IMG/VR virus record: IMGVR_UViG_3300038696_000498
Location: 1-25,579 of that record
Length of the DNA: 25,579 bases
Strand: one strand, 5' to 3'
DNA from: a virus
Shown: piece after piece, positions 1,295 to 22,958 of the stretch
How the letters are laid out: each line of letters starts with the position of its first letter
Position numbering within the stretch: position 1 is the first letter of the stretch
Notes under the pieces: generated by a model
Databases searched by the model: none
What the model was told of the DNA's origin: nothing
What the model saw: the letters and a program-made list of their open reading frames with translations, nothing else
Made by a program: the position numbers and the translations under genes

Positions 1295-4249
1295 TTAGTT
1301 GCCGCGTCTGGAAATCCCATTTGATAATTTCTTCGGCCTCTGCTTGGTCGACGCCGGACGGGACTTTCCTGTGCAGGCTGGGTAGCGGACACAGCCCAGA
1401 AACTGCCCATAGCGGCTTTTGCGTTCAACCAGCCAGCCATCGCTGCATTCAGGGCAGTCCGCATAGCTGGCCCCGCAGCTGCACCGCACCTCCGACAATT
1501 CGGGCGCCAAACGCGGCAGGGCTGACCCGCAGGATGCGCAGGCAGGCAGCAAGTTTCCGCAATGCTGGACATGTTCGCAACGGTACCAGACACGACCGTC
1601 CTTGCCGGTAACGCCAACCAACCTGCCGCCGCATTCTCCGCATTCATGTTCTTCCTGATCCGCACCGGGTGGTGTGACCACACCGTAGGCGGGGTCTTTG
1701 CGCAGTTCTGTGACAAAAGCAGATGGACGGGCATTCGACGCAATGAGTGTGAGCGTGAAGCGTGCGCGCGTCATCGCGACATACATCACGCGTCGCTCCT
1801 CAGCGTTCTCGAACACCTCTTCTTCCGGAGAGACCAAAGTCAGTAACGGGTCATCGACCATTTCCGAGGGGAACCCCGTGCGGCCACTGTCGGCGTTCAA
1901 CAGAACTACATGATCAGCCTGCAGCCCTTTGGAAGCATGGATAGTCTTGAAGTTGAGCTGCAAGCGCGGAAACTGCCTCTTTACCGCGCTCATATCCGGT
2001 TCGACAAAACGGTATCGACCCAACAGAAGGACGCTCGGTGGTTTTCCAGAGCTATCGGACTGCGCCGACAGGTTGGCTAGAACTTCCGTGAGTTTGCCCT
2101 GCCCATCGTTGCGCGACGCTGTCACGATCCTGATCGCTGGTTCAGTTGCTATGCCCGCAGGAACAATCTGCTTTTCCAACTGGGCAGGGTTTTTAAGAAC
2201 AAATGTCTTGGCGGCAAAGGCGATCTGGTCAACCGAGCGGAACGTACGACCGAGATCAACTGTCCTATGAATACCAGCTTCGCTATCAAATTTTCCACCA
2301 AACTCTCCTCCGAAATGGCGCATCAAATGGATGTCAGAACCGGCAAAGCGAAAAATAGACTGCCAGTCGTCACCCACGGCAAACATTCGTACGTCCGGAT
2401 GCTGCGATTTCAGCGCCTTCACCAACCTTGCGCGGCTTTGCGAGATGTCCTGAAATTCGTCAACGAGGATATGGCGAAAGGGACTGACATACTCTCCCGT
2501 CTCTGTGTAGTGGGCGGCCCTGAGGATCATGTCCTCAAAGTCGATCCGCCCGTCGAGCCGTTTCTCATATTCCGCAAACACGGGCGCAAAGACATCCAGA
2601 AAAGCCTTGGCCCTCTTACCAAGCTTCATTCGTTTTGATTTTGCTTCACAATCGGCGAGGCTGTAGCCACCACTTTTGTACTTGCGGAGAAACGTCCCGA
2701 GAAGCTGCGAGAATGTATCCACCTGCTTTAAATCGATCACGCGATCATAGATTGTTTCGACCGGACGAGGGTTGATGGTCACATGGGGTGCCAGCTTTTC
2801 GGCAAGCGCAGTCAGAAGCCGACCTTCCTGACGTTCATAGCTGAAAGTTTCGACGAGGATGGTTTCGTGCGTCGCGTGAACCTCCCGTTTCCATTCCATG
2901 CCTGCCAGATAGCTTTCGCGGTCTACAAAGGGGGCAGTTGTCAGCCTTTCGCTGCCATCGGCCAGCTCCTGACGCCGGACCCCGAAATGCTCGATGTAGA
3001 CGCCGCTTTCGGTCAGCCGAAAATCAGGGCAATAGTCCCGCCGTCCAGTGCCCGGGAGCTTATGCTCATAGTTGGGTTCATACGTGTACTCGATACCATT
3101 TTCGTAGAGCCAGTTGGCGATTTGCAGCTCTTCATAGCTCTTGACCTTCTCGCCCTGCAACGTGCGCAGATCCTGCTGTTCCATATGGGTATAGAAGGCA
3201 TGCTTGGTGGCAAAATCCCATTCAGTCTTAGGCTCGACAAGAAAATGGGCAAACCATCGGATAATAGCCTTGGAGACATCTGACAGCGTTTTGATGAGAT
3301 CCTTCAGGATTTGCTTAATTAGGGCGGTGAATGCTTTATCGTCAGTGGCATGGTCGGCCAATGCTGGCTTAGAACCTTCAACTAGACCAATAATATCATA
3401 GGCGATCGCGTGGAAGGTCCGCGCCACAATTGGTACGCCCGATCGCGCCTCAACCCGCTCAGACATTTCTGCCGCTGCATTTTTGGCAAAAGCCAATAGC
3501 AGGATTTCATCCGGTTGCCTGATGCCAGCCTTCACAAGATAAGCAGCCTTCGCAGTAATGACGCTTGTCTTGCCTGACCCCGCCCCTGCGAGGACCAGTG
3601 TAGCATCCTCGTCCACCACTAGAGACAATCGCTGCTCGGGCGTCAGCGGCATGCTCTCAACGGTATCGAAGAACGCCTTCCAGCGTTCGAGTTCGGCAGT
3701 CACGAACGTCGAAATTGCCTCGGCTCTGGCGGCGCGCGGGTCGGCGACGAATTTCCTGACGCGATCAATGCGCACCATTCTTTCAGAACCGATGGCTTGG
3801 CGCTGCAGCTTAGACAAGAGCGTTACATCGAGATCGCGCGCGTCGACCAGCAGTGGCTCGATATTGCAAGCGGCAGGATATTGGTCCGGTTTCTTCAAGG
3901 CAGAAACGGCAGCATCAAGGCGGTCAAACAGGTCTGCTTCTCGCTCAAAGGCTGCCACATTGAAGTCGACCCAAGCGCGCGTCAATTTGTCGGAAAAATC
4001 CACCGCATCGGCATAGCGGGCACCACGCAAAATTGCGTTGGCATGAGCGCCTGTGGGCACAGTCATGGTTGAGCCTAGGGCGCTCTTTCTAACGGTCGGC
4101 GACTTGCAAACATCCGCAAGGGACAGGCGCGCTGTCTGGCCACGCTTAATTGCCCGAAGCTCAATACCATCAAGTTCGAAAACCTGGGCGGTTGTGCCAA
4201 ATGGGTTCACGATCAATCCGAGTAGTAGTCCCTGATGCAGTTGAATCAA
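1295..4249 (-). CDS. UvrD/HelD-like superfamily 1 helicase with nuclease-like insert and C-terminal zinc ribbons
   Basis: This 984-aa ATP-dependent DNA helicase is related to E. coli helicase IV. Walker A is AGAGSGKTS (221-229), Walker B ILVDEFQDIS (594-603), motif III GDDWQSIFRFAG (626-637), motif V HASKGLQADHVV (771-782) and motif VI YVAMTRAR (823-830). An insert at about 370-425 contains EELQIANWLYENGI, then CPDF and VYIEHFG, the spacing of a PD-(D/E)XK fold with D409 and E420, although the usual lysine is not evident. Residues 865-960 hold three zinc-ribbon pairs of CxxC type like those of topoisomerase I. It is longer than HelD (about 680 aa) because of the insert and the tail. The start is TTG with a weak ribosome site; an in-frame GTG lies 15 codons later. 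It stands alone on the minus strand. A role in repair or phage defence is possible; the helicase family is certain, the biological role is not. Confidence 0.9.
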   Translation of the reverse strand: MIQLHQGLLLGLIVNPFGTTAQVFELDGIELRAIKRGQTARLSLADVCKSPTVRKSALGSTMTVPTGAHANAILRGARYADAVDFSDKLTRAWVDFNVAAFEREADLFDRLDAAVSALKKPDQYPAACNIEPLLVDARDLDVTLLSKLQRQAIGSERMVRIDRVRKFVADPRAARAEAISTFVTAELERWKAFFDTVESMPLTPEQRLSLVVDEDATLVLAGAGSGKTSVITAKAAYLVKAGIRQPDEILLLAFAKNAAAEMSERVEARSGVPIVARTFHAIAYDIIGLVEGSKPALADHATDDKAFTALIKQILKDLIKTLSDVSKAIIRWFAHFLVEPKTEWDFATKHAFYTHMEQQDLRTLQGEKVKSYEELQIANWLYENGIEYTYEPNYEHKLPGTGRRDYCPDFRLTESGVYIEHFGVRRQELADGSERLTTAPFVDRESYLAGMEWKREVHATHETILVETFSYERQEGRLLTALAEKLAPHVTINPRPVETIYDRVIDLKQVDTFSQLLGTFLRKYKSGGYSLADCEAKSKRMKLGKRAKAFLDVFAPVFAEYEKRLDGRIDFEDMILRAAHYTETGEYVSPFRHILVDEFQDISQSRARLVKALKSQHPDVRMFAVGDDWQSIFRFAGSDIHLMRHFGGEFGGKFDSEAGIHRTVDLGRTFRSVDQIAFAAKTFVLKNPAQLEKQIVPAGIATEPAIRIVTASRNDGQGKLTEVLANLSAQSDSSGKPPSVLLLGRYRFVEPDMSAVKRQFPRLQLNFKTIHASKGLQADHVVLLNADSGRTGFPSEMVDDPLLTLVSPEEEVFENAEERRVMYVAMTRARFTLTLIASNARPSAFVTELRKDPAYGVVTPPGADQEEHECGECGGRLVGVTGKDGRVWYRCEHVQHCGNLLPACASCGSALPRLAPELSEVRCSCGASYADCPECSDGWLVERKSRYGQFLGCVRYPACTGKSRPASTKQRPKKLSNGISRRGN

Positions 4250-4947: not shown

Positions 4948-5294
4948 TCAAATCGACCATGCCGCGGGCACCAATACCCTAAGACGTACTCGATGAAATT
5001 CGCCATAAGATTTTCACCGAAGTCCCCCGCGCGTGTACTTGGGCCGGGCGCTGCCACCGAGTCCGAGAATTTGATATTGGTCATAAAATCGGCGTTAGAC
5101 AGACCCGTATCGGCAAACATATCCGGCAAGTCTTCATCGAGGCAGTAGTGCTGCCGGTAGTGGGTTGCCCAAGCTGAGAGGATCGAGGGATTATCTGCAT
5201 GCTGCAAAACCCAGATTTCAGCCTTGCGGCCATCTGCCGTTTCGATGACCTCGCCGGTATCCTCGAGCCATGCGACATGATCGGGTGTTACCAA
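4945..5294 (-). pseudogene. N-terminal remnant of a partner gene, fused to helicase remains
   Basis: A frame opens at a TTG (5294-5292) preceded by GAAGGA about 10 bases upstream, and reads MVTPDHVAWLEDTGEV and on to RAGDFGENLMANFIEYVLGYWCPRHGRF. The open frame runs to 4860, but from about 4945 onward the DNA encodes the UvrD helicase in another frame, so the last 25-30 residues are not native. The GDFGENL helix followed by a basic/aromatic stretch resembles the first helix of some PD-(D/E)XK or DUF1837-like nucleases, but the catalytic part would lie in the deleted section, so the family is not established. I infer one deletion that removed the end of this gene and the start of the helicase gene. 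Confidence 0.65.
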
Positions 5295-5763
5295 AATTCA
5301 AAAATCCTTCTTTTTTGCCGTTTTAATACTCAACGTTCACGTTCCTTAATCTTCAGACTTAGAACAAGGTTCTTAGATTGTCATGCTTCACCAACTCCCA
5401 GTGCATGTACTTTTCGCCAACCAGCTTGCTGTTTTGGTGATCTTCCAGAAGTCAGCCGCCGTGCGGACCTGCTCCGTTTAAAATCAATGTCGGTTCGCCA
5501 TGGTCTTCTCCTTGCTCGCAGCATCATGCCGTTGTTGCGCAGAAAATCCACTTATCCCAATTGTTCAGATTTCGGGAACCACCTTTCTATGCATGAATAA
5601 AGGCGTCGCTGAGGAAGAGAGCATTCAATCCATCAAGAATCCCGCTGCGTAAGTTAAACCTGAAATTGTGTAGAGTGTCAGGATTTTGGCAGAAAGCGCT
5701 TGTACTCTGTACTGACTTTGTCTTTTCTGCCGAGAATTTAGTGTCGTTGATTGTCGGCAGGCA
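5295..5763. other. Intergenic stretch with no supported gene
   Basis: Nothing in this 469-bp stretch reads as a convincing protein on either strand; the open frames are short and biased. It presumably contains the promoters of the leftward remnant and of the rightward ATPase operon. Near its right end an inverted repeat pairs 5688-5695 (GGCAGAAA) with 5724-5731 (TTTCTGCC), and a second one pairs 5728-5733 (TGCCGA) with 5754-5759 (TCGGCA). These overlap and could be alternative hairpins in the operon leader. Confidence 0.5.
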
Positions 5764-5814: not shown

Positions 5815-7293
5815 ATGAATTTGCGATTTGCCGATGCAACTCCTTTTGCTTCATCCTTGATCGAAGGACTTAGGGACTTCGGCTATAGTCTGGAAACGTC
5901 CCTTGCCGATGTGATTGATAACTCGATAACGGCAGGTGCAACCACGATTGAGGTTCTCGCAGACACCACTAGCGATGCCCCTTGGATAGCAATCATCGAT
6001 AACGGGTCCGGCATGACCGAGACCGATCTTGTCGATGCTATGCGACCAGGGTCAAGGAACCCCCTTGAAGAGAGAGCAGCAGGCGACTTGGGGCGGTTTG
6101 GCCTCGGGTTGAAGAGCGCGAGCTTTGCCCAATGCCGTAAACTGTCAGTCTTCTCGAAAATCGAAAATAAGGGGGTCTGCGCCACTTGGGATCTCGATGA
6201 GGTCGCCAAATCGAATGCGTGGCAAATATCACTCAGTGACGGGTTTGGGCACCCAGCTGTAGAAGCATTGGTCGAGGCGCATGGAACTGCCGTAATCTGG
6301 GAGAAGCTCGACCGTTTGGACGGAGGCTACCGGACAAATCATGCAGATCGCGCAAAAACAATCAACGCAGCGCTCTCGAAAGCAGAGCAGCATTTGCGAT
6401 TGGTCTTTCACCGGTTTCTGCAAGGAACCCGACCGCGCGTAAAATTAAGGCTGAACGGTCGTTCACTGGCGCCCATTGATCCTTTTGCCGAAACAAATGC
6501 GGCCACCCAATTTGACCAACCGGACGATCTGCTTCTTGCGCAGGGTATGGTGAAAATCCAGTGCGTTACACTTCCCCACAACAAGCGGATGACAAAAACA
6601 GCTTGGGAGGAGACCGGTGGTCCGGACGGTCACCTTAAATCCCAAGGTCTATACATTTACCGAGCTGACAGGCTCATCATCGCAGGTGGCTGGCTGGGCC
6701 TTGCGCGCCAGACAGAGCTGACCAAGCTTTGTCGTGTGAAGATCGATATTCCTAACTCGATGGATGCTGACTGGAAGATTGACGTCAAGAAAGCATCCGC
6801 ACAGCTGCCGCCAGTTGTCCGTGAACGGTTGAAAAAGGTGGTCGAACGATTTGTCGGGACGTCAAAAAGGACCTATCAGAAACGGGGACGCAAGCTGGTG
6901 GATGAGCAACGTGTACCCATGTGGAACAGGGTCAGAAAAGACGAGGATATCATTTTCCGGCCAAACCTCGACCACCCAGTATTTTCCGAGTTCCGAGACC
7001 TGCTGGGGAATGACCGCCTGGCAAAAACTTTTGACAACTGCATCGCGCTTTTAGGAGCGTCTCTACCAATTGAAAGTCTACATGCTGACTTGATGGGTGC
7101 TGCTGAAACTGTTGTTGCTGACCCTGTAGGTCTTGAAGCGCTACGGCAACAAATCGAAGCCCTCGTTGCGAAGTTCCTCGAACAAGGAATCCCCGAGGCA
7201 AATATCGCGGACACGCTGCGCAACATTGACCTGGTCAAGGCAAACTGGACAGTGGCAGAACCGATGATCGCGGAAATCTTGAAAGAGAGCTAA
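5815..7293 (+). CDS. MORC/MutL-type GHKL ATPase of a Z1 defence operon
   Basis: This 492-aa protein has a GHKL (gyrase, Hsp90, histidine kinase, MutL) ATPase domain in its first 200 residues. The N-box is SLADVIDNSITAGA (residues 29-42, with N36 for magnesium), motif II is IDNGSGM (61-67) and the lid/motif III is GRFGLGLKSASF (93-104). The position of the MutL catalytic glutamate holds D32. The remaining 290 residues contain a predicted transducer-like region and no recognised nuclease. Prokaryotic MORC-type ATPases of this kind were predicted to act as ATP-driven clamps in restriction-modification-like operons. It is the first gene of a four-gene unit and its stop is only 2 bp from the next ATG. 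Ribosome binding is weak (GGGG about 10 bases upstream), so expression may be kept low. Confidence 0.9.
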   Translation: MNLRFADATPFASSLIEGLRDFGYSLETSLADVIDNSITAGATTIEVLADTTSDAPWIAIIDNGSGMTETDLVDAMRPGSRNPLEERAAGDLGRFGLGLKSASFAQCRKLSVFSKIENKGVCATWDLDEVAKSNAWQISLSDGFGHPAVEALVEAHGTAVIWEKLDRLDGGYRTNHADRAKTINAALSKAEQHLRLVFHRFLQGTRPRVKLRLNGRSLAPIDPFAETNAATQFDQPDDLLLAQGMVKIQCVTLPHNKRMTKTAWEETGGPDGHLKSQGLYIYRADRLIIAGGWLGLARQTELTKLCRVKIDIPNSMDADWKIDVKKASAQLPPVVRERLKKVVERFVGTSKRTYQKRGRKLVDEQRVPMWNRVRKDEDIIFRPNLDHPVFSEFRDLLGNDRLAKTFDNCIALLGASLPIESLHADLMGAAETVVADPVGLEALRQQIEALVAKFLEQGIPEANIADTLRNIDLVKANWTVAEPMIAEILKES

Positions 7294-7295
7294 TC

Positions 7296-10013
7296 ATGTC
7301 AGAATTATACGAGAAGCTGGATGCGACTGTTTCCCAGGCAATCCTAGGCAGCGAGAAAAAATCTCCCGATGAGATCCGCGCCCTCATTTTCACCCTAAAT
7401 ACGGTAGTTGTGGGTGGCGCGTTAGGACATGATGACCTTGAAAAATTGGCTCGGAGCATAGAAACGCGCTATAGCGTCAGCATGGGTCTCGGGGCCATTG
7501 TGGATGACGGCTCGTTCGAGCCGTGGCTTGATGACGTGAAAAAGGATATCGATCCATTTTACTGGAAGCGGTACAAGAAGTTACTTGTAAAGACCGGCCT
7601 TCCACAAGATGTGGTCACAAAACTTGATCAAGTGACGGATCAAATCCTGAGCCGCCTCGGAAATCCTAACAAAAATGTACCGTGGGACAGACGCGGTATG
7701 GTCGTGGGACATGTTCAGAGCGGCAAGACCGCAAATTACACAGGTTTGATCTGCAAGGCGGCGGACGCTGGCTACAGACTGATAATCGTAATCGCAGGCA
7801 TTCATAACAATCTGAGAAACCAGACGCAGGAACGGATTGATGAAGGTTTCATCGGGCGTGACACGGGGCGCATGGCGGCGGCATCAAACAGAGCCAAGGT
7901 GATTGGCGTAGGTGAGTTCGAAGACGATCGGGTGCCGGTAAGTCTGACAACCGCACTGGCTGATTTCAACAAGGCCACAGCCAACAACAACAAGAGCCAG
8001 ATCGGCTCCTACAACGTACCTGTTGTTCTGGTAATCAAGAAAAACTACCGTACTCTTCGGAACTTAATCGACTGGTTAAAAGAGAATAGTGCCAAGGGTG
8101 ATGAAGCGATGATCGATCAGCCCATGTTGCTGATTGATGACGAGGCAGACAACGCTTCAATCAATACGAAGTTCGGCAAGCAAGCCGTTACAACCATCAA
8201 TGGCCAGATCCGCGACCTCCTGCAGACGTTTCATCGCAGTTGTTACATCGGATATACAGCCACACCCTTCGCAAACATTTTCATTGATCCTGAACAGGAT
8301 CACGAGATGCATGGCGAGGACCTCTTTCCAAAGCACTTCATTATCGGCCTCGATGCTCCTTCCAACTATTTTGGAGGACAGAAAGTATTCATCGACGGGA
8401 TGCCTGAAGAGGGCGAGCCGGAATTTCTCAGATTTATCGATGATAATGACGACTACCTTCCTATGGTTCATCCCATCGACCAAATCATAGACGAACTACC
8501 CCCCTCTTTGCATACCGCCCTACTTGCCTTTCTTCTTGCGCGTGCAGTCCGGAATCTAAGAGGGCAGTCCGATAAACATTCGTCCATGCTGGTAAATGCC
8601 AGCCGCTTTACCGGAGTTCAGGGGTTGATCAGGAACCGGCTGCACGAAGCGCTGGAAAGCATCCTGGACTCGTTGCGAGTGAACGGCTCGTTGGGGGACG
8701 GTGCATTGGCCGACCCCGAGATTGCAAGCCTGCATTCTGTCTGGAGCCAAGAATTCTCAGGGCTTGAATTTACTTGGCCCGAAGTTCTGTCAGCTTTGCT
8801 TGACGCGGCAGCAGCAGCGAAAGTAGTCGAGGTTAACAGTCGCAGTCAGGGCGCTCTCGATTACTCGTCCAAAGGTCAGACCGTTATTGCAGTGGGCGGG
8901 TTTTCACTTTCAAGGGGCCTGACACTCGAGGGTCTCACAACAACGTGGTTCCTGCGAAACACTGCTATGTATGACACACTAATGCAGATGGGGCGCTGGT
9001 TCGGGTATCGGATGGGATATGAGGATGTATGCCGCATCTGGATGCCTCGTGCTGCCATCGCATGGTATTCACATATCGCCGAAGCAACAGATGAGCTTCA
9101 CGTTGAGTTGCGCAGGATGCAAAAAGCGAAATTGACGCCTGAACAATTCGGACTCGCCGTCAGAAGCCACCCTTCGTCATTACTAGTGACAGCGCGCAAC
9201 AAGATAGGAGCAGGCAAGAAAACAGTTTCAGTGGGGCTGTCCTCCCAATTTGTCGAAACCGCTCGAATCGATGTCTCTCGGAAAGCACTGGAAGGCAACA
9301 AGGAAGCCGCGCTGGCCCTCATCTCCGCAATCGACAGCAGCTATCTGGTTGAACATCCAGTTCCAGGAGGCACTCTCGTGAATGATGTCCCCGTATCCAT
9401 TATCGACGATTTTCTCAGATCTTGGCACAATGCTGAACAAGCGATTACTACACAGATCGAGCCATTGCGGAAATACATTGATGATCGAAGTGTTGACGAA
9501 CTCGGTTCATGGGACGTTCTGATAGGCTCATTGGCAAAGGGTGAAAAGATCGAAGGCTATAGCCGAATTATCTACCCAATGGAGCGCAAGATATTGGCCG
9601 AGGACTTACCTAAAGGCTTTCTTTCCATAGGTGGATCAAAGATGCGGGTGTCGTCGCGTGGCGTGGAGCGCGTCGGTATAATCGACGAAGATGCACTTGC
9701 AGTAGAGCAAAGGTATCGCGATGGAAAAGGTATACCCGACGGTGTTTCTGTGAACTACCCCGGCACAATATATCGCCCCGTCCGGCCGAGGCCGTTGTTG
9801 GCATTGTATCACGTCCAGATCAAGGAAGCTGAAGGGAAGGACGGGGCCAAAATCGATGGATTTCCCTATGGACCCATAATCGCATGGGCCATCAGTTTCC
9901 CGCAATCAGCGAGAGCTGATGAGAGAGTAGAATATATTATTAACACCCAGAAGCAGCGCGAGATCTTTGGAGATGAAGATGACGACGAAGACGCCAATGC
10001 CGAAGATGTCTGA
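7296..10013 (+). CDS. Z1-domain superfamily 2 helicase/ATPase
   Basis: At 905 aa this is the usual size for Z1 proteins. Walker A is GHVQSGKT (138-145), preceded by RRGMVV. Walker B is LLIDDEADNAS (278-288), followed by the motif III-like YTATPFANIFID (320-331). The Z1 region proper, at about 528-590, contains GGFSLSRGLTLEG and LMQMGRWFGYR with the arginine-finger motif. The C-terminal 300 residues have no recognised fold and end in an acidic tail (GDEDDDEDANAEDV). The family is found almost only beside GHKL ATPases, DUF4420 and AIPR genes, and is presumed to move along or remodel DNA for the associated nuclease. It starts 2 bp after the ATPase stop, with GAAAGAG just upstream, and its end overlaps the next gene. 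Confidence 0.92.
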   Translation: MSELYEKLDATVSQAILGSEKKSPDEIRALIFTLNTVVVGGALGHDDLEKLARSIETRYSVSMGLGAIVDDGSFEPWLDDVKKDIDPFYWKRYKKLLVKTGLPQDVVTKLDQVTDQILSRLGNPNKNVPWDRRGMVVGHVQSGKTANYTGLICKAADAGYRLIIVIAGIHNNLRNQTQERIDEGFIGRDTGRMAAASNRAKVIGVGEFEDDRVPVSLTTALADFNKATANNNKSQIGSYNVPVVLVIKKNYRTLRNLIDWLKENSAKGDEAMIDQPMLLIDDEADNASINTKFGKQAVTTINGQIRDLLQTFHRSCYIGYTATPFANIFIDPEQDHEMHGEDLFPKHFIIGLDAPSNYFGGQKVFIDGMPEEGEPEFLRFIDDNDDYLPMVHPIDQIIDELPPSLHTALLAFLLARAVRNLRGQSDKHSSMLVNASRFTGVQGLIRNRLHEALESILDSLRVNGSLGDGALADPEIASLHSVWSQEFSGLEFTWPEVLSALLDAAAAAKVVEVNSRSQGALDYSSKGQTVIAVGGFSLSRGLTLEGLTTTWFLRNTAMYDTLMQMGRWFGYRMGYEDVCRIWMPRAAIAWYSHIAEATDELHVELRRMQKAKLTPEQFGLAVRSHPSSLLVTARNKIGAGKKTVSVGLSSQFVETARIDVSRKALEGNKEAALALISAIDSSYLVEHPVPGGTLVNDVPVSIIDDFLRSWHNAEQAITTQIEPLRKYIDDRSVDELGSWDVLIGSLAKGEKIEGYSRIIYPMERKILAEDLPKGFLSIGGSKMRVSSRGVERVGIIDEDALAVEQRYRDGKGIPDGVSVNYPGTIYRPVRPRPLLALYHVQIKEAEGKDGAKIDGFPYGPIIAWAISFPQSARADERVEYIINTQKQREIFGDEDDDEDANAEDV

Positions 10014-10959
10014 TGTTTGGACGGCACTCACACCCGGAGAAGGAAAACGGGTAAATGCCGAAGGGAAATTTGATTTCTTTTGGGCGACACTCGAAGGAAA
10101 GTGCCCGTCATTGGTTCTTTTTCTGCCAGACGGTATTGAAGAGGCTGCCAGTCTTCCGAAGCTAAATCACATCGAGGTTGCCTTTCGGGATCTTAGCAAG
10201 CGGGCGTTCGTGCTACGCCTTCTAGACGAGGCACAGCGTGCGCTGTTTTTAACGCTGTGCCTCAATGTAGTGGAAGCAGCGGAAGGCGCAGATACACTTT
10301 CGAATGCTCTTAACCGTGCCATAAACAGAACACGCCGCTGGCATTTTTTCCTTAAAGCTGGAAGTACGCGGGGACTTTCCATCGAAGAACAACGTGGACT
10401 TGTCGGAGAACTGGCATTCTTGGACGAGCTTTGCGACATCATTGGACCAGCCGCCGCAATCGAGGCTTGGATGGGTCCTGAAGGATCTTCAAAGGATTTC
10501 GAATTTCCGCACTGCTGCATAGAGGTGAAGGCACGCCGAGGCGCGGCAAAACCCTATGTTCGAATATCGTCGGAAGACCAGTTGTCAGATGTAGACGGAG
10601 GAAAGCTCTTTTTGAAAGTCTATAACGTGGATAGTGCGATGGTCCCTGAGGGGGAGAACCTTCATGAACATGTTTCGAAGTTGGCTCTCCGGTTCGAAGA
10701 GTACGATCAGGCTTTCGGACAGTGGGAGGACCGTATTACAGCGACAGGATATGCGCCGCAAGACGACTATGCGGATCGGCGATGGATAGTTGGAACAGCA
10801 AAGACCTATACCGTAGTTGAGGGCTTCCCCAGGGTAGTTGCTCCTCTGCCAGAAGGTGTCGGCAACCTCGTCTATACCATCGCCCTTGAATCCTGCACGC
10901 CGTTTCTCACGAATGTGCAAACAGAGAAATTGATCAACAAGGCAACCATCAATGGATGA
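10006..10959 (+). CDS. PD-(D/E)XK motif protein, DUF4420 family nuclease
   Basis: This is a probable endonuclease of about 317 aa. The PD-(D/E)XK core reads RGLVGELAFLDEL (E135), then WMGPEGSSKDFEF (D164) and CCIEVKARRG (E173 and K175), a complete catalytic set. The start at ATG 10006 was chosen because MSDVWTAL resembles the N-termini of related proteins and gives the usual 8-bp overlap with the Z1 gene. In-frame ATGs at 9973, 9979 and 9997 and a TTG at 9967 are possible but lie within the acidic tail of the upstream gene. The gene overlaps the AIPR gene by 8 bp, indicating translational coupling. Within the system it is the best candidate for the DNA-cleaving subunit. Confidence 0.88.
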   Translation: MSDVWTALTPGEGKRVNAEGKFDFFWATLEGKCPSLVLFLPDGIEEAASLPKLNHIEVAFRDLSKRAFVLRLLDEAQRALFLTLCLNVVEAAEGADTLSNALNRAINRTRRWHFFLKAGSTRGLSIEEQRGLVGELAFLDELCDIIGPAAAIEAWMGPEGSSKDFEFPHCCIEVKARRGAAKPYVRISSEDQLSDVDGGKLFLKVYNVDSAMVPEGENLHEHVSKLALRFEEYDQAFGQWEDRITATGYAPQDDYADRRWIVGTAKTYTVVEGFPRVVAPLPEGVGNLVYTIALESCTPFLTNVQTEKLINKATING

Positions 10960-13048
10960 TCTTCTCGAATTTCACCAACAGCTTCTAGCAGATGTCCAAG
11001 GCGATGCAGATGCAGACGGAGTTTATACAGCAGAGGCATTCTTTGAGATCGTGTGCAGCTTACTGTCCGAAGCTGGCGAGATCGATGTGGGCACACGCGC
11101 ATATCATTCCGGAAAGGGTATCGGACCCGACAATAGGTCAATTATCCAGGTAGACGGCTATGGAGGAGACCCGCGTGATACAGAAACCCTGAGCCTGCTG
11201 ATTTGCGATTTCGCTGTCACTTCCGAAGTGCGGCGCAGGACGTCTACTGAACTCAAGGCGTTTTTTAGCAAGCTCGTTGGCTTCCTGCGGGCAAGCCGCA
11301 ACTTGGAGTTCCGTGAGGCAATCGAGGAGACCAGTGACGGCTTCGGGCTTGCGGATTTGATTTCGACGACATGGAAGCACATAGAGAAGATAAAACTCAT
11401 TCTGATCACCAACGCCGATAGTCGAGCAAAGGTCGACGCGTTTCCAGCGGGATCGATGGGCGATGTGCCCGTGACCTACAATGTGTGGGACCTGAAGCGG
11501 ATAAAGAAGTTCATGGAACAGGGCCAAGCGCGCGAGGACCTTTCCATAGATTTCGTGAGAGATTTTGGCGGTGCGATCCCTATACTCCGTGCATCTGGAA
11601 GCGATGCTGCATTGGAGAGTTATCTTGCCGTTATTCCTGGCGACCAGCTTTCCGCAATTTACGAAAAGTGGGGTTCGCGACTGCTCGAATCCAACGTCCG
11701 AAGCTTTCTCCAAGCACGAGGGAACGTGAACAAAGGCATTCGGAAGACGATTGTGGATGAGCCGCATATGTTTCTTGCGTACAATAACGGTATCGCCGCA
11801 ACGGCAGATTCCCTGAATGTGCAGCAAACACCAACCGGTCTTGAACTGGTTTCGGTCGAAAACCTACAAATTGTAAATGGCGGACAAACCACTGCGTCCC
11901 TCCATGCTGTCCGGAAAACTGCGGCGGAACAGCTGTCCGAAGTTTTTGTCCAGATGAAGCTCAATATCGTCCCACGAGAACTTTCCGAAAGCGTGGTGCC
12001 GCGAATATCCGAATATGCAAACAGCCAAAACAAGGTAAACGCGGCCGACTTTTTCGCCAATCATCCTTTTCATGTCCGTATGGAAGAGTTCTCAAGGAGG
12101 CTACTCGCTCCTGCCGGCAGTGGGGGCTACCGCGAGACAAAATGGTTCTATGAGCGTGCAAGAGGCCAATATGCAGATGAACGGTCGAAGTTCACTGATG
12201 CCGGTCGGAAAAAGTGGGATGCCGAGTTTCCAAGATCCCAGTTCTTCACGAAAACTGACCTCGCAAAGTATGAAAACTCGTTTCAGTGCAAGCCAGAGAT
12301 TGTCAGCCTAGGAGCACAGAAGAACTTCGGGAAATTTGCGGCGCAGATCGGCGGCCGGTGGGGCGAAAGTGGCCATGCATATGATGAAACATGGTTTCGC
12401 CGCCTTGTTGCTAAGGCCATCATTTTCCGCCGTTTGGAGAAGGCTATCTCGGCCTCTCAATGGTACGAAGGAGGATATCGTGCGAACATCGTGACATATG
12501 GTATTGCCAAACTGGTCCATGATTTGACACTGCAGGATAGAACAATCGATTTTGACCGTATATGGAAGTTACAGGAACTACCCGCAGAACTGGAAGCGGC
12601 ATTTATGGTTGCAGCCGCTGAGGCACAGTCTGTCGTTCTTGAACCTGTCGCAGTGAGAAACATCGGAGAATGGGCCAAGAAACAAGCCTGTTGGAAGTTA
12701 TTATCCGAACGGGAACTGGACTATCCGGATACTTTGGACTCTTGGGTCATTACTGTGGAAGAAGCCAATGCGGCGAAGCAGCAAGACCGCAGCGAAAGAG
12801 ATGCAGATAAAGGTGTCATCGAACAGACTCGGACCTTTGAATTGGGGCCTCGGTTTTGGTCGGAATGCTACGTTTGGGGTCGGCAAATGAAGGCGCTGTC
12901 TCCTCGCGAAGCCGGGGTGCTTGAGATATGTTCGAAGATCCCCGAGAAACTGCCGACAGAAAAACAATGTTACCTTGCAATGCGCGCCCTTGAAAAACTT
13001 GTCGGGCTTGGCTTCGTGCATGACTTGCTTCAAGAGCCAACAGAGTAG
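10952..13048 (+). CDS. AIPR-family protein (abortive infection phage resistance type)
   Basis: This 698-aa protein carries the AIPR hallmark segments FLAYNNGIAATA (274-285) and LQIVNGGQTTASL (305-317). The N-terminal 150 residues contain a predicted mixed alpha/beta domain (IIQVDGYGGDPRDTETLSLLICDF) that in some family members looks like a degraded restriction-enzyme fold; I see no complete catalytic triad. The family takes its name from a lactococcal abortive infection protein and recurs in MORC/Z1 operons. The ATG at 10952 overlaps the upstream stop in ATGGATGA. The gene ends the plus-strand operon and its stop lies 12 bp from the stop of the convergent minus-strand gene. Its biochemical activity is unknown. 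Confidence 0.9.
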   Translation: MDDLLEFHQQLLADVQGDADADGVYTAEAFFEIVCSLLSEAGEIDVGTRAYHSGKGIGPDNRSIIQVDGYGGDPRDTETLSLLICDFAVTSEVRRRTSTELKAFFSKLVGFLRASRNLEFREAIEETSDGFGLADLISTTWKHIEKIKLILITNADSRAKVDAFPAGSMGDVPVTYNVWDLKRIKKFMEQGQAREDLSIDFVRDFGGAIPILRASGSDAALESYLAVIPGDQLSAIYEKWGSRLLESNVRSFLQARGNVNKGIRKTIVDEPHMFLAYNNGIAATADSLNVQQTPTGLELVSVENLQIVNGGQTTASLHAVRKTAAEQLSEVFVQMKLNIVPRELSESVVPRISEYANSQNKVNAADFFANHPFHVRMEEFSRRLLAPAGSGGYRETKWFYERARGQYADERSKFTDAGRKKWDAEFPRSQFFTKTDLAKYENSFQCKPEIVSLGAQKNFGKFAAQIGGRWGESGHAYDETWFRRLVAKAIIFRRLEKAISASQWYEGGYRANIVTYGIAKLVHDLTLQDRTIDFDRIWKLQELPAELEAAFMVAAAEAQSVVLEPVAVRNIGEWAKKQACWKLLSERELDYPDTLDSWVITVEEANAAKQQDRSERDADKGVIEQTRTFELGPRFWSECYVWGRQMKALSPREAGVLEICSKIPEKLPTEKQCYLAMRALEKLVGLGFVHDLLQEPTE

Positions 13049-13060
13049 ACAAGGCCTTCT

Positions 13061-13471
13061 TCAGTGAGGTTGGTAACTCTGAAGCAGGGCGATTGCTTGG
13101 CGTATCCGAGCAGGCTCAAGGTTGATGCTCTTGAATGACCGTGGTCCGTCACCTGCGGAAAAATGGATTATTTTTGCCAGAATTTCGAACAAGGGGAGTG
13201 TCTGAACAGCCCCCATCGTTCTGGCAACATCATCATCCAGATTATCAGCAAAAAGTTGGCGCCATTTTTTTTCCTCATAGCGCGCAGGAAAATCGTCAGG
13301 GCTTCCGAGAATATCTTCTAGACAAGAAATCAGCTGGGTTCCGGTCATGGCAAACCAACTGCGATTGCCGCCTTTTCCGGTATTGCTGAACGTAAACACC
13401 AGCCCAGACGTTGGTCTGGCTACAAGAATTTGACTATTGTCGTTGAGCATATCTTCAATGAAATCAGTCAC
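13061..13471 (-). CDS. Unrecognised 136-aa protein coupled to vsr
   Basis: I do not recognise this protein. The open frame extends up to 13540, but the GTG at 13471 is the better start: it lies one base after the vsr stop and has an AAGGAAGA ribosome binding site 5 bases upstream, inside the end of vsr. The protein is acidic, has no membrane segment and no cysteine pair, and shows a beta-rich first half (SQILVARPTSGLVFTFSN) followed by helices. Its C-terminus (LEPARIRQAIALLQSYQPH) looks like a short helical tail. Being third in the methyltransferase-vsr unit, it probably works with the modification side or restrains the convergent ATPase operon. No catalytic motif can be identified. Confidence 0.75.
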   Translation of the reverse strand: MTDFIEDMLNDNSQILVARPTSGLVFTFSNTGKGGNRSWFAMTGTQLISCLEDILGSPDDFPARYEEKKWRQLFADNLDDDVARTMGAVQTLPLFEILAKIIHFSAGDGPRSFKSINLEPARIRQAIALLQSYQPH

Positions 13472-13472
13472 G

Positions 13473-13949
13473 TCAATCTTCCTTTGTCTGCTTATTCGCC
13501 CCGCGGATAGAATACTCTCGCCCGACACTACAGATTGCATTTCTCAACTCTTCTTCGAGTTCATGTTCTTTAAGTGCAGTTCGCCCTTTCAGACTGCATT
13601 CCCAGACAGTTGTGGTTCGCCATCCAAGTTCTTGTAATTCGGAATTCTTAACCATGTCGCGGGCCTTATTGGTGGCGATCTTTTTCCTCCAAAACTCCTC
13701 TCTGGATTTAGGAGGTCGGAAGAGCGGGCAATTTTCGTGCCCATGCCAGAAGCACCCATTTACAAAGATGATAGTTCTAAAGCGCGGAAGAGTAATGTCC
13801 GGCCGTCCAGGCAAATCTTTCCGGTGGAGCCTGAACCGGTATCCCATCCTATGAAGCAGTTTACGCACGGCAATTTCTGGACGGGTATCTTTTGAACGGA
13901 TACCACTCATCATAGTACTGCGCTTTGCAGGGGAAACTACGTCGGCCAT
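13473..13949 (-). CDS. vsr: Vsr-type very short patch mismatch endonuclease
   Basis: This 158-aa protein nicks DNA at T:G mismatches formed when 5-methylcytosine deaminates, and so repairs the side-effect of the adjacent methyltransferase. Seen here are the N-terminal MSGIRSKDTRPEIAVRKLLHRMGYRFRLH, the active-site PGRPDITLP with D51 in the same position as in the E. coli enzyme, and FVNGCFWHGHENC with H69 and H71. A GWRTTTVWEC segment follows. The length matches the family (about 150 aa). The ATG overlaps the end of the methyltransferase gene by 13 bp, so translation is coupled. Sequence specificity cannot be read from the sequence and should follow that of the methyltransferase. Confidence 0.95.
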   Translation of the reverse strand: MADVVSPAKRSTMMSGIRSKDTRPEIAVRKLLHRMGYRFRLHRKDLPGRPDITLPRFRTIIFVNGCFWHGHENCPLFRPPKSREEFWRKKIATNKARDMVKNSELQELGWRTTTVWECSLKGRTALKEHELEEELRNAICSVGREYSIRGANKQTKED

Positions 13950-15211
13950 AGACCGCTATGCTCTTTGGTAGGAACTCCGAGAATTGGCAGCATTTGACGA
14001 GCAATTGCATCGATAACTGGAACGGCGACCGAGTTCCCGAACTGCTTATAGACCTGTGCGCTACTCACCGATGAAATGTGAAAATTCTCAGGAAACCCCT
14101 GAATCCGGGCTGCTTCCCGAGGCGTGATTTTACGCGGGCGGCTATGGCCATGTTGCTGAACCAATATCTCGCTACCATCCTTGTAATAGCGCGCGCTGAT
14201 TGTATTGCAATACTCGGCATCTTCATCAAACAGAGTGTACCCGAAACCGTTGCCATTCTCCAAGTGGCGTTGCTTACGTCGCATGTGGCCTGCCCAGAGT
14301 TTCTCGGAGATTACAAAACGTTCGGTTTCATCATTCGTGGGTTCGAGAATTTCCCCAAACGTCCTTTTTGAATAACCTTCATCTCTTCTGTTAAAAACCT
14401 CAGCGAACATATCTTCAACTAAGCTTTCCTTGGATGCCTCGGGCACTTTTTTACGATTGAAACCAACAATATAAACACGCTCCCTGTTTTGCGGCACCCC
14501 GAAGTCCCGCGCTCGGAATACTGCAAAGTCAGCGTTGTAGTTCAATGGCTCTTCCAGCGCTATTCGTGCTTCGTCAGACATCGGCACATGAACAGGTATT
14601 TGCGGGATACCTTTACCATTAAGAATATTCATGATTGTGGTAAGTGTACGTCCACCATCATGTCCCTGTAATTGCTTCACATTTTCCAATAGAAAAGCCG
14701 CAGGCTTATGATGTGCAAGTATTCTCTGTATCTCGAAAAACATAGTTCCACGCGTATCGAGGAACCCAGCCTTCCTGCCAGCTTGGGAGAAGGTCTGACA
14801 AGGAAAACCGGCTAGCAAAACATCGTGAGTGGGAATTTTAGCAGCGCTGAACTTGGTTATATCTCCATCTAGCTTGGGAAAATCGCCGAAATTACTGGCG
14901 TACGTAATTTGCGCGTACTTGTCCCACTCAGCCGTGAAGGAGCAAAGCCCTCCCCTCATTTGGAAGGGGAGCCTCATCCCTCCAATTCCCGCAAAAAGGT
15001 CTATGAAACTGAAATTTGCAGCTTTCCCATGCGCGAAGATAAATTCCCTCGGCAACGCCATAATCCGCTTCCGGTAGCTGGGCGGAATATTTTCAGGGTT
15101 CCTGAGCCACTTCTCGATCGTTTGCGTGCGGTCTTTGTTGATACCCAAGAGGATAGCGAGTTCATCACTTCTCAGATCAAGCCGTTCCTGAACAGTTCGT
15201 AAGTCAAACAT
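13937..15211 (-). CDS. HTH-fused C5-cytosine DNA methyltransferase
   Basis: This 424-aa enzyme transfers a methyl group from S-adenosylmethionine to carbon 5 of cytosine. Motif I is FIDLFAGIGG (69-78), motif IV GFPCQTFSQAG with the nucleophile C138, motif VI LLENVKQ (175-181), motif VIII QNRERVYIVGF (241-251), and motif X YKQFGNSVAVPV near the C-terminus. The first 60 residues (VQERLDLRSDELAILLGINKDRTQTIEKWLRNP) form an XRE-like helix-turn-helix. In enzymes of the SsoII/EcoRII type a similar extension represses the promoter of the enzyme's own gene. It heads the minus-strand unit, with GAAGAAGAG before the ATG. No separate classical type II nuclease gene lies beside it, so it probably protects the host from the ATPase/nuclease operon opposite. 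Confidence 0.93.
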   Translation of the reverse strand: MFDLRTVQERLDLRSDELAILLGINKDRTQTIEKWLRNPENIPPSYRKRIMALPREFIFAHGKAANFSFIDLFAGIGGMRLPFQMRGGLCSFTAEWDKYAQITYASNFGDFPKLDGDITKFSAAKIPTHDVLLAGFPCQTFSQAGRKAGFLDTRGTMFFEIQRILAHHKPAAFLLENVKQLQGHDGGRTLTTIMNILNGKGIPQIPVHVPMSDEARIALEEPLNYNADFAVFRARDFGVPQNRERVYIVGFNRKKVPEASKESLVEDMFAEVFNRRDEGYSKRTFGEILEPTNDETERFVISEKLWAGHMRRKQRHLENGNGFGYTLFDEDAEYCNTISARYYKDGSEILVQQHGHSRPRKITPREAARIQGFPENFHISSVSSAQVYKQFGNSVAVPVIDAIARQMLPILGVPTKEHSGLWPT

Positions 15212-16625: not shown

Positions 16626-16799
16626 ATGACACGCGTTCCCGCCCTTCCCTCTTCTGACCCGTCTGCTGATGCGCAGATCGACGCTGCGGTGATGCGGTTG
16701 GCTGATCTGTTTGCGCAGCAGGTGGCGCGGGAATTGGCGGCGGATGCTCCTGACGCGAAGGATACGCCCAATGCCAGCACAGCCCCACAAAAAGACTGA
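16626..16799 (+). CDS. Small hypothetical protein upstream of an excisionase-like gene
   Basis: This 57-aa protein (MTRVPALPSSDPSADAQIDAAVMRLADLFAQQVARELAADAPD and a short tail) has one predicted amphipathic helix and no known domain. A GTG at 16611 in the same frame is an alternative start. Its 3' end overlaps the next gene by 29 bp, so the two are probably translated together. I recall similar gene pairs in front of recombinases in Rhodobacterales, but no recombinase is present here. Confidence 0.55.
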   Translation: MTRVPALPSSDPSADAQIDAAVMRLADLFAQQVARELAADAPDAKDTPNASTAPQKD

Positions 16800-16980
16800 C
16801 AAACCCCGCACACTTCTGACTGTGAAGGACGTGGCGGAACTGGACAACTGCTCCGAGAAGACGGTGCGCCGCGCGATCTCTGCGGGGCTGTTGGAGGTGA
16901 TCCGCGTCGGCCCCGGCGGACGCTTGTTGCGTATCGATCCGGCCGCACACGCGGCCTATCGCGCAACTTCCGCCTGGTAG
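16771..16980 (+). CDS. Excisionase/MerR-like helix-turn-helix protein
   Basis: This is a 69-aa DNA-binding protein. The segment TLLTVKDVAELDNCSEKTVRRAISAGLLEVIRVGPGGRLLRIDPAAHAAY is a standard HTH_17 fold: a helix-turn-helix followed by a short beta wing. Proteins of this kind act as excisionases or small regulators in phages and integrative elements. The ATG at 16771 overlaps the upstream small gene; an in-frame start at 16711 would lie deep in that gene and is less likely. In a complete prophage one would expect recombinase or terminase genes nearby. Here the cut portal gene follows within 80 bp, so this gene sits at the edge of a deletion. Confidence 0.75.
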   Translation: MPAQPHKKTDKPRTLLTVKDVAELDNCSEKTVRRAISAGLLEVIRVGPGGRLLRIDPAAHAAYRATSAW

Positions 16981-17055: not shown

Positions 17056-17538
17056 CTCTCGAACTCGCGCTTGGCCCTCATCGAATTCCGCCGCCGCGTC
17101 TCCGCCTGGCAGCATTCGGTAATGGTGTATCAACTCTGCCGTCCGGTATATGCGCGCTGGTTGGATTTGGCCGTGCTCTCAGGCGCGCTCACCCTGCCCG
17201 GCTATGAAAGGGCGCGCCCGCGCATGATGGCCGCCGACTGGCTGCCCACGAAATGGGATTGGGTCGATCCGCTCAAAGACGCCAATGCCGAAATCGCCCA
17301 GATCGAAGCTGGCCTCAAATCCCGCAGCCAGGCCATCGCCGAGCGGGGCTATGACGCAGAACAAGTTGATCGCGAAATTGCTGCAGAGCGGGAACGTGAG
17401 CGATCGCTAGGTCTTGATTTCCGCCGGCCAGGATCGCCTGCGCAGGGCGTGCAGGCCGTACCAACCGCGGAAGACATCATTGAAACAGAGAAACCTGATT
17501 CCCAAGATCGACCAACCACCGCAGCAGAGGAAGGATAA
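17056..17538 (+). pseudogene. Phage portal protein (lambda gpB-like), C-terminal fragment
   Basis: The frame reads LALIEFRRRVSAWQHSVMVYQLCRPVYARWLDLAVLSG, then RMMAADWLPTKWDWVDPLKDANAEIAQIEAGLKSRSQAIAERGYDAEQVDREIAAERERE. This is the C-terminal third of lambda-type portal proteins, which form the dodecameric DNA entry ring. Portal proteins are about 500 aa; only about 160 remain. A TGA at 17053-17055 precedes the homologous part, and no N-terminal portal or terminase sequence is found in the 75 bp back to the HTH gene. The fragment therefore results from a deletion and cannot form a portal. A TTG at 17071 could initiate a shortened product. Confidence 0.85.
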
Positions 17539-17544
17539 TAACGT

Positions 17545-17943
17545 TCATCCCTGAATGAGGCGGACACCGGGCAGGCGCGCGGCTTTTCGATCGAAGGTCA
17601 CCAATTCCACAGCGCCAAACCGCTTGGCGGCTGCGGCAATCATCAAGTCAGCAAAGCCAAAACCGTCACTGCGGTAGAGCTCTAGCGCAGGCGCAACCTC
17701 ATCAGCGCCTTCGATGTCCAGCTCGGTTGCCGATAACAAACCGTCGAAAGCAACAGCAATCTCAGCTCGACTGAACCGATAGGCACGCTCAAGCACCCAG
17801 ACAAGTTCGATCAAAACCTCGCGGCTGACAAAACCCCGCGCGTCATCGGTTAATTGGTCGATTATATTTGTGGCCAGTTGCGCCTGTGCAGGGTCGTCTT
17901 GCACGAGAAAGCGCACAAGAACATTGGTATCGAGCGCGATCAC
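17545..17943 (-). CDS. vapC: PIN-domain toxin, VapC type
   Basis: This 132-aa protein is a predicted magnesium-dependent ribonuclease of the PIN fold. The acidic residues are visible in MIALDTNVLVRFL (D5), EVLIELVWVLE, DGFGFADLMIAAAAKR and LVTFDRKAARLPGV. VapC toxins cut tRNA or rRNA and stop growth until neutralised by their antitoxin; the target here is unknown. It starts with GTG in a GTGA overlap with the antitoxin stop, the usual toxin-antitoxin layout. The pair is on the strand opposite to the phage genes and lies between the portal remnant (6 bp away) and the protease gene. Confidence 0.92.
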   Translation of the reverse strand: MIALDTNVLVRFLVQDDPAQAQLATNIIDQLTDDARGFVSREVLIELVWVLERAYRFSRAEIAVAFDGLLSATELDIEGADEVAPALELYRSDGFGFADLMIAAAAKRFGAVELVTFDRKAARLPGVRLIQG

Positions 17944-18191
17944 CGAACGAGAGCCGCGCTATCCGTTGCACCGGCTGCAATCGCCTCATTCATCTCCTCC
18001 AAGGAGACGGGCTTCTGACCAGACCTTGAAAGGATGCCCCGCAATTCCTTAACAGAGCGCGCCTTCAGGATCCGCACCTCACCGTCGAGGATCAGGTAGC
18101 GAACCTTGTCCCCGCTGGACAGGCCAAGCGTAGCCCGCACATCTCTCGGCAGGGTGGTCTGGCCTTTTACTGTCACTGTCGATTCATGCAT
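17940..18191 (-). CDS. vapB: AbrB/SpoVT-type antitoxin, VapB role
   Basis: This 83-aa protein begins with an AbrB/MazE swapped-hairpin DNA-binding domain (STVTVKGQTTLPRDVRATLGLSSGDKVRYLILDGEVRI). A C-terminal tail (SVKELRGILSRSGQKPVSLEEMNEAIAAGA) follows, of the kind that binds the toxin. In this family the antitoxin, alone or with toxin, represses its own promoter. An AAGGA site about 8 bases before the ATG supports the start. Its promoter must lie in the 51-bp gap shared with the divergent protease gene, so the antitoxin may also affect phage gene expression there; that is inference. Confidence 0.9.
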   Translation of the reverse strand: MHESTVTVKGQTTLPRDVRATLGLSSGDKVRYLILDGEVRILKARSVKELRGILSRSGQKPVSLEEMNEAIAAGATDSAALVR

Positions 18192-22792: not shown

Positions 22793-22878
22793 TGGTGCCC
22801 CCTGCCGGACTCGAACCGGCACGGCCTTGCGGCCAAGGGATTTTAAGTCCCTGATGTCTACCATTCCACCAAGGGGGC
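22793..22878 (-). tRNA. tRNA-Leu (anticodon UAA)
   Basis: Read on the minus strand, the acceptor stem GCCCCCT pairs with AGGGGGC, followed by discriminator A and an encoded CCA. The anticodon loop is CTTAAAA between GGGA and TCCC, giving anticodon UAA. A long variable arm (GGCCGCAAGGCC region) marks it as a class II leucine tRNA, and the T-loop is GTTCGAGTC. It decodes UUA, a rare codon in GC-rich hosts. It is separated by 3 bp from the next tRNA gene. Confidence 0.95.
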
Positions 22879-22881
22879 ACG

Positions 22882-22958
22882 TGGTAGGCCCGGAGGGACT
22901 TGAACCCCCAACCAAAGCGTTATGAGCGCTCTGCTCTAACCAATTGAGCTACAGGCCC
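22882..22958 (-). tRNA. tRNA with CAU anticodon (probably Ile2, possibly elongator Met)
   Basis: Read on the minus strand it begins GGGCCTGTAGCTCAATTGG, has the anticodon loop CTCATAA and a GTTCAAGTC T-loop, and ends GGGCCTACCA with encoded CCA. It has 77 bases. A CAU anticodon fits elongator methionine or isoleucine tRNA 2, whose C34 becomes lysidine and reads AUA. The acceptor and D arms resemble the isoleucine tRNA body, so Ile2 is favoured. The sequence alone does not prove it. It does not have the C1:A72 mismatch of an initiator. Confidence 0.9.

Follow-up and report, generated by a model that had tools for sequence, protein, structure and literature searches.

How restriction-like systems built around MORC-type ATPases and Z1 helicases discriminate self from non-self DNA has been an open question since their prediction in 2008. 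We approached it through a seven-gene island at positions 5815 to 15211 of the virus contig IMGVR_UViG_3300038696_000498; the window, meaning the whole stretch of DNA analyzed, is this entire contig of 25,579 bp, and any host genome beyond the contig lies outside it. The island probably encodes a restriction-like phage defense system in which a constant four-protein engine (MORC, Z1, DUF4420, and AIPR) is joined to an exchangeable specificity cassette. The exchange of a methyltransferase and a lone specificity-type domain on a constant core is a natural experiment, which makes the question testable.

All seven open reading frames (ORFs) are open and intact. The plus strand encodes a MORC-type GHKL ATPase of 492 amino acids (aa) (5815 to 7293; HATPase_c_3, E = 1.9e-30), a Z1-domain superfamily II helicase or translocase of 905 aa (7296 to 10013; Pfam ID PF10593, 1.3e-76), a putative PD-(D/E)XK nuclease of the DUF4420 family of 317 aa (10006 to 10959; PF14390, 1.2e-62), and an AIPR protein of 698 aa with the AIPR_N and AIPR domains (10952 to 13048; PF22879, 4.7e-35, and PF10592, 2.9e-100). 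The minus strand holds a 136-aa protein without a Pfam domain (13061 to 13471), a Vsr mismatch endonuclease of 158 aa (13473 to 13949), which passes the TIGR00632 Vsr model with 149.9 bits against a cut-off of 97.85 in addition to its Pfam Vsr match, and a 5-methylcytosine (5mC) DNA methyltransferase of 424 aa with an N-terminal extension (13937 to 15211; DNA_methylase, PF00145, 5.2e-88). The MORC stop (7293) and the Z1 ATG (7296) are separated by 2 bp, the Z1 stop (10013) overlaps the DUF4420 ATG (10006) by 8 bp, as does the DUF4420 stop (10959) the AIPR ATG (10952), and the methyltransferase and Vsr genes overlap by 13 bp. The families, gene order, and coupling given in the initial annotation all hold, and its gap and overlaps are exact with a DUF4420 start at ATG 10006, which is most likely the true start and corrects the TTG at 9967 in the ORF list.

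Relatives were collected by a Z1 protein search of virus contigs and a Z1 alignment search of one genome per species, yielding 92 core loci, 85 of which have all four core genes. In every one of these 85, the order and strand of MORC, Z1, DUF4420, and AIPR are identical, which is far beyond chance, and with the longest-ORF starts, the genes are separated by medians of -4, -35, and -11 bp. A 5mC methyltransferase lies near the core in all 58 loci with complete flanks (at least 3.5 kb on either side of the core), and 53 of these additionally have a Vsr gene, the position and orientation of both relative to the core varying among loci. The loci are spread over Proteobacteria, Chloroflexi, Planctomycetes, Firmicutes, Verrucomicrobia, Nitrospira, and others. 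The initial annotation had treated the genes as one system and proposed looking for the same set across genomes; that comparison refutes an absence of conserved co-occurrence, and with order and strand kept in 85/85 loci and the methyltransferase in 58/58, treating the genes as one system is sound. No seventh gene shared across most relatives was found when searched for, the recurrent neighbors being mainly recombinases and integrases, and the plasmid and phage collections contain no DNA nearly identical to the window. A decayed instance is seen on a Devosia plasmid (L037, 4810 to 12074), where the core copy is split into many frames and a VapBC-like pair lies nearby.

Z1 and DUF4420 hardly vary at their catalytic residues. 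In Z1, the Walker A motif GHVQSGKT, the DDEAD motif, and Q-x-GRWFGYR show no change among 10 diverse relatives and almost none across the full set of aligned loci. DUF4420 keeps E135, D164, E173-x-K175, and Q192 in 100% of the aligned loci, in line with its earlier reading as a nuclease, which this conserved E-D-ExK-Q signature supports. The MORC N-box (D32-x2-D35-N36), D62-x-G64-x-G66, and the G-box are likewise invariant across aligned loci, including an Asp at D32 in all aligned relatives. ATPases of the MutL and GyrB type have the catalytic Glu at this N-box position, and the Asp in MORC may make hydrolysis slow and the closed clamp long-lived. No solved relative of Z1 was found by sequence.

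The methyltransferase is where the window departs from its relatives. Its motifs PCQ, ENV, QNRERVYIVGF, and QFGNSVAVPV are intact. The initial annotation had described it as fused to a helix-turn-helix (HTH); the methyltransferase assignment stands, and an N-terminal HTH is called by Pfam in the related methyltransferase of locus L064, not in the window protein. Close relatives share about 43 to 67% identity with the window in their core proteins, yet their methyltransferases usually reach only about 30% over a partial length. The window methyltransferase is instead about 48 to 56% identical to enzymes adjoining LlaJI- or LlaMI-type restriction genes without a Z1 core, and a relative annotated as LlaJI adjoins the same methyltransferase type. 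In the methyltransferase tree, a 23-row clade (support 97), made up mostly of restriction-modification methyltransferases, includes those of the window and loci L044 and L128, and the 65 usual core methyltransferases form a separate, fully supported clade. In the core tree, the same three loci form one clade nested among loci with the usual methyltransferase, and L059, L064, and L069, which carry other Dcm-like methyltransferases, occupy three further separate positions. These placements therefore imply at least four independent cassette exchanges. The methyltransferase usual for this core has thus been replaced in the window by one of LlaJI/LlaMI-type restriction origin. Vsr apparently moves along with the cassette: the window copy shares 70% identity across 124 aa with its counterpart in L014, a locus with a methyltransferase-Vsr-R1-R2-like operon. 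L059 and L064 hold another imported cassette, composed of a Dcm-like methyltransferase, Vsr, and an EcoRII-C endonuclease as third gene. The earlier view of the minus-strand genes needs revising: a methyltransferase near the core is the rule, but this trio is not the usual partner set, its methyltransferase stemming from another kind of restriction system. A further hybrid locus, L030 (2267 to 11290), encodes an SNF2-type helicase, a MORC protein (30% identity), further proteins including one resembling LlaJI.R2, and the same methyltransferase type, which suggests that MORC and LlaJI-type modules mix more widely.

The 136-aa protein at 13061 to 13471, which the initial annotation had listed as unknown, has a recognizable origin. 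It aligns to approximately the first 145 residues of six proteins of 446 to 501 aa with 29 to 42% identity (E values of 4e-24 to 1e-7, the best alignment having 35% identity and 4e-24). These longer proteins sit divergently next to the methyltransferase type of the window, and the two that were scanned contain an AAA_5/McrB-like domain. By this homology, the protein is identified as a separately encoded version of the specificity-position domain found at the N terminus of LlaJI.R1/McrB-like AAA+ subunits; the window protein ends after that domain, and neither the AAA+ part nor an R2 gene is present. Its start is most likely the GTG at 13471, 1 bp past the Vsr stop, and not the ATG at 13540, a choice with which the domain boundary in relatives agrees.

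Further copies were sought with a profile of the domain in three Alphaproteobacteria searches and in the Z1 scan. Three more standalone copies were found (L044/G001, L128/G221, and L162/G817), each in the exact seven-gene layout of the window. A clear fused copy beside a methyltransferase (L129) and two weaker, longer matches (L163 and L164) occur without the core. The domain adjoins the core in 4/4 standalone cases and in 0/8 of the fused cases examined (Fisher p = 0.002, with kinship ignored). Copies surfaced only through methyltransferase neighborhoods: the domain by itself had no match in viral contigs and plasmids, and none was found among 274 sampled Gammaproteobacteria genomes, a set without a positive control. 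Between the window and L044, the domain shows 62% amino acid identity, with a pN of 0.26 at nonsynonymous sites versus a pS of 0.88 at synonymous sites, which are saturated, similar to the other six genes. The domain is a maintained gene under purifying selection, and we rejected the possibility that it is a decaying R1 pseudogene on the grounds of the boundary conserved in four loci and the saturated synonymous divergence.

These results bear on whether the island could be two independent systems side by side, namely, the core and the remnant of a LlaJI-like type II restriction-modification system (methyltransferase, Vsr, and R1 fragment) retained for antidote methylation. The order of methyltransferase, Vsr, and third gene does match the methyltransferase-Vsr-R1-R2-like operon of L014, and the closest methyltransferases and Vsr proteins come from such systems. 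However, a 5mC methyltransferase accompanies the core in all 58 complete loci and the LlaJI/LlaMI type is the sole one seen in the window clade, the same trimmed domain recurs in four loci with a synonymous divergence unlike that of a decaying remnant, and the stop codons of AIPR and the standalone domain gene are merely 12 bp apart. We therefore regard two unconnected systems as unlikely.

What the standalone domain does is suggested by its fused homologues. R1 is the only specificity subunit of LlaJI (PMC1459862), and in McrB homologues, the N-terminal domain is a variable region that binds DNA and sets specificity (PMC7680126, PMC11090510). By analogy, the standalone domain may read DNA sites for the MORC-Z1 core. 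Several observations weigh against such a role. The predicted structure is confident (predicted local distance difference test [pLDDT] of 84), but it matches no solved DNA-binding fold, the hits having Z scores of at most 4.2 and comprising unrelated proteins only, which were not used. The protein has a mildly acidic pI (5.1), and close kinship links three of the four standalone copies to each other. Most relatives lack a recognizable separate reader gene, which implies that the core does not need one to function. A profile of the domain retrieved nothing from the PDB sequences. A plain PDB sequence search gave only weak matches to designed Armadillo repeats, judged to be spurious.

The acidic pI and the lack of a match to a DNA-binding fold would equally suit a role as protein adaptor, with the methyltransferase or Vsr as conceivable partners, or in controlling how the cassette is expressed, and the conserved motifs FSNTG and VQTLPLF could just as well be interaction surfaces. 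We consider an adaptor or controller somewhat doubtful, since the fused homologues carry the domain at the very place where LlaJI.R1 and McrB get their DNA specificity. The reader interpretation leads to a broader and tentative proposal, in which MORC-Z1-DUF4420-AIPR could be a general DNA-targeting engine that takes specificity modules from unrelated type II systems, steered here by a standalone McrB/LlaJI-type domain, so that swapping methyltransferase and reader would reprogram the target.

The role of AIPR had been left open in the initial annotation, and a structural reading can now be offered. No solved relative was found by sequence. In the AlphaFold2 model (pLDDT of 86, predicted template modeling score of 0.51), residues 1 to 192 resemble PD-(D/E)XK enzymes, with VIA-align Z scores of 9.0 to 5.2 (AF1548, 9.0; AspBHI, 8.2; MspJI and FokI, 7.6; HamA, 7.1), and residues from about 217 to 362 resemble ParB/Srx-fold proteins, with Z scores of 6.8 to 4.1 (pNOB8 ParB, 6.8; sulfiredoxin, 5.2; SspE, 4.4; BrxU, 4.2). 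Many of the matched rows are mutually related, but the Foldseek E value is at best 0.58, and it counts against our interpretation that the Z scores are moderate and come from a VIA-align reexamination of Foldseek's weak candidates only. An NG-x-QT motif, IVNGGQT in the window, is invariant in the aligned loci and recalls the (I/V)DGQQR motif of DUF262 (PMC10952713). AIPR is thus predicted to combine a degenerate PD-(D/E)XK domain with a ParB/Srx, DUF262-like domain.

This prediction differs from the HEPN-toxin reading of AIPR and bears on the possibility that the island acts by abortive infection, AIPR being a toxin released upon MORC/Z1 sensing and the methyltransferase only protective. The name AIPR itself derives from abortive infection, and an N-terminal HEPN toxin domain was assigned to AIPR by Makarova et al. 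in 2012 (PMC3506569). The modeled residues 1 to 192 nevertheless match PD-(D/E)XK folds; in the putative site, D68 is conserved in 85% and D86 in 79%, the lysine is not retained, and the fully conserved nuclease of the system is DUF4420. The fold matches argue with moderate confidence against the HEPN reading for this branch, and we regard an abortive mechanism as quite improbable.

For a restriction-like engine with an exchangeable cassette, composition, conservation, exchange, and selection were observed, while the biochemical steps are all inferred. The methyltransferase would mark its motif in the host genome, and Vsr would repair the T:G mismatches arising from 5mC deamination. The standalone domain, or else the methyltransferase itself, perhaps in other loci, would locate the unmarked motif on incoming DNA. 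The ParB/DUF262-like domain of AIPR could then act as a licensing NTPase switch, MORC would form a closed, ATP-driven clamp or loop on DNA, Z1 would translocate along the DNA, and DUF4420 would cut if the motif is unmethylated. This scheme would keep both elements of the initial proposal, in which self DNA is marked and the nuclease is brought to DNA without the mark. Two known systems offer precedents. In CglI and NgoAVII, which are real restriction enzymes, a Z1 helicase hydrolyzes nucleotide on unmethylated sites with a nuclease partner (PMC4267653), and in SspE, a DUF262-type NTPase licenses the nuclease through a recognize-hydrolyze-activate switch (PMC10952713, PMC13251355).

The island, apparently prophage-borne, lies next to phage genes. 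In every related contig reaching that far (over 20), phage homology begins at about position 17,057, within a lambda-type portal gene of which the window holds only the C-terminal part (17057 to 17538; residues 339 to 454 of the portal_lambda model), and none of the sequence to its left belongs to those phages. The island abuts this broken portal gene either by insertion or by an assembly joining, which would make the contig chimeric; the contig does not extend to the left junction. A search of viral contigs with the sequence left of the portal junction gave no second copy of that junction. Just inside the right boundary, a small ORF (16711 to 16980) encodes an excisionase-like, also terminase-small-subunit-like, HTH protein, which might fit the expectation for an integrative element. 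At the left contig end is an IS3-type transposase (rve; 391 to 1191). A 984-aa UvrD/helicase-IV-like protein (1295 to 4249) with a resolvase/endonuclease-like insert (about residues 363 to 423) and a topoisomerase-type zinc ribbon is distinct from the seven-gene system but perhaps part of the same island. A PIN toxin and AbrB-like antitoxin pair (17545 to 18191) between the portal fragment and the head protease is shared by some related phages (97% in L138), and others, e.g., L130, lack it. Adjacent tRNA-Leu(taa) and tRNA-Met(cat) genes (22793 to 22958, minus strand) lie between the phage head and tail genes.

Among known systems, the closest named families are those of mzaABCDE, described as a validated antiphage system (Gao et al. 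2020, as cited in PMC9523054), whose MORC, Z1, PD-(D/E)XK, and AIPR proteins are described there in the same order as in the window core. The best NCBIfam/PADLOC families of the four core proteins are MzaB to MzaE, in order, with 330.8 bits of the 850-bit equivalog cut-off for MzaB (NF041932), 543.2 of 1500 for MzaC (NF041933), 104.5 of 420 for MzaD, and 372 of 1050 for MzaE, i.e., 25 to 40%. No scanned window ORF matches the mzaA sigma factor, the upstream stretch from 5199 to 5600 having no family; a sigma-factor version of the core occurs in Thalassospira (L038). Unlike mzaABCDE as described in that source, the window has a methyltransferase, Vsr, and an extra domain. By these scores, the system is a distant relative of mzaABCDE. 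Miller et al. (2022) predicted in silico, as a defense system, a Type II combination of Z1 (about 925 aa), a PD-(D/E)XK DUF protein (printed as DUF4220), a 5mC methyltransferase, AIPR, and MORC, with about 20% identity to mzaBCDE (PMC9523054), and the window contains this set. Their text includes neither a methyltransferase cassette exchange, nor a standalone LlaJI.R1-type domain, nor Vsr in Type II, assigning repair endonucleases to Type I.

Other comparisons concern single modules. CglI and NgoAVII pair a Z1 helicase N-protein with a PLD-B3 R-protein, whereas the window nuclease is a DUF4420 PD-(D/E)XK protein and the Pfam scan found no PLD or B3 family among the window proteins. The Corynebacterium diphtheriae BH8 island (Puigbo et al. 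2017, PMC5379612) likewise contains a Z1 helicase, DUF4420, and an HTH-fused Dcm-like methyltransferase; its EcoRII-like restriction endonuclease parallels L059 and L064, and AIPR, MORC, and Vsr are not named there, three proteins being left unclassified. LlaJI (PMC1459862) shares the methyltransferase type, and the third minus-strand protein is homologous to the N-terminal domain of LlaJI.R1-like McrB homologues, but the window has no R2 and nothing of the AAA+ GTPase portion of R1.

Among the papers searched, no experimental study of this MORC-Z1-DUF4420-AIPR branch was found. The match to the operons of Iyer, Abhiman, and Aravind (2008) drawn in the initial annotation is borne out: their third MORC operon type combines MORC with a superfamily II helicase (DThhQXuRhFG) and an E-D-ExK nuclease (PMC2292703), and both motifs are present in the window, the former as D560-T-L-M-Q-M-G-R-W-F-G570 of Z1. 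The associated genes in their account also comprise a cytosine methylase, Vsr, and AIPR, as in the window, and that account of the operon type does not describe cassette exchange or a separate specificity-type domain. This kind of system had thus already been predicted, and what is new is the minus-strand trio.

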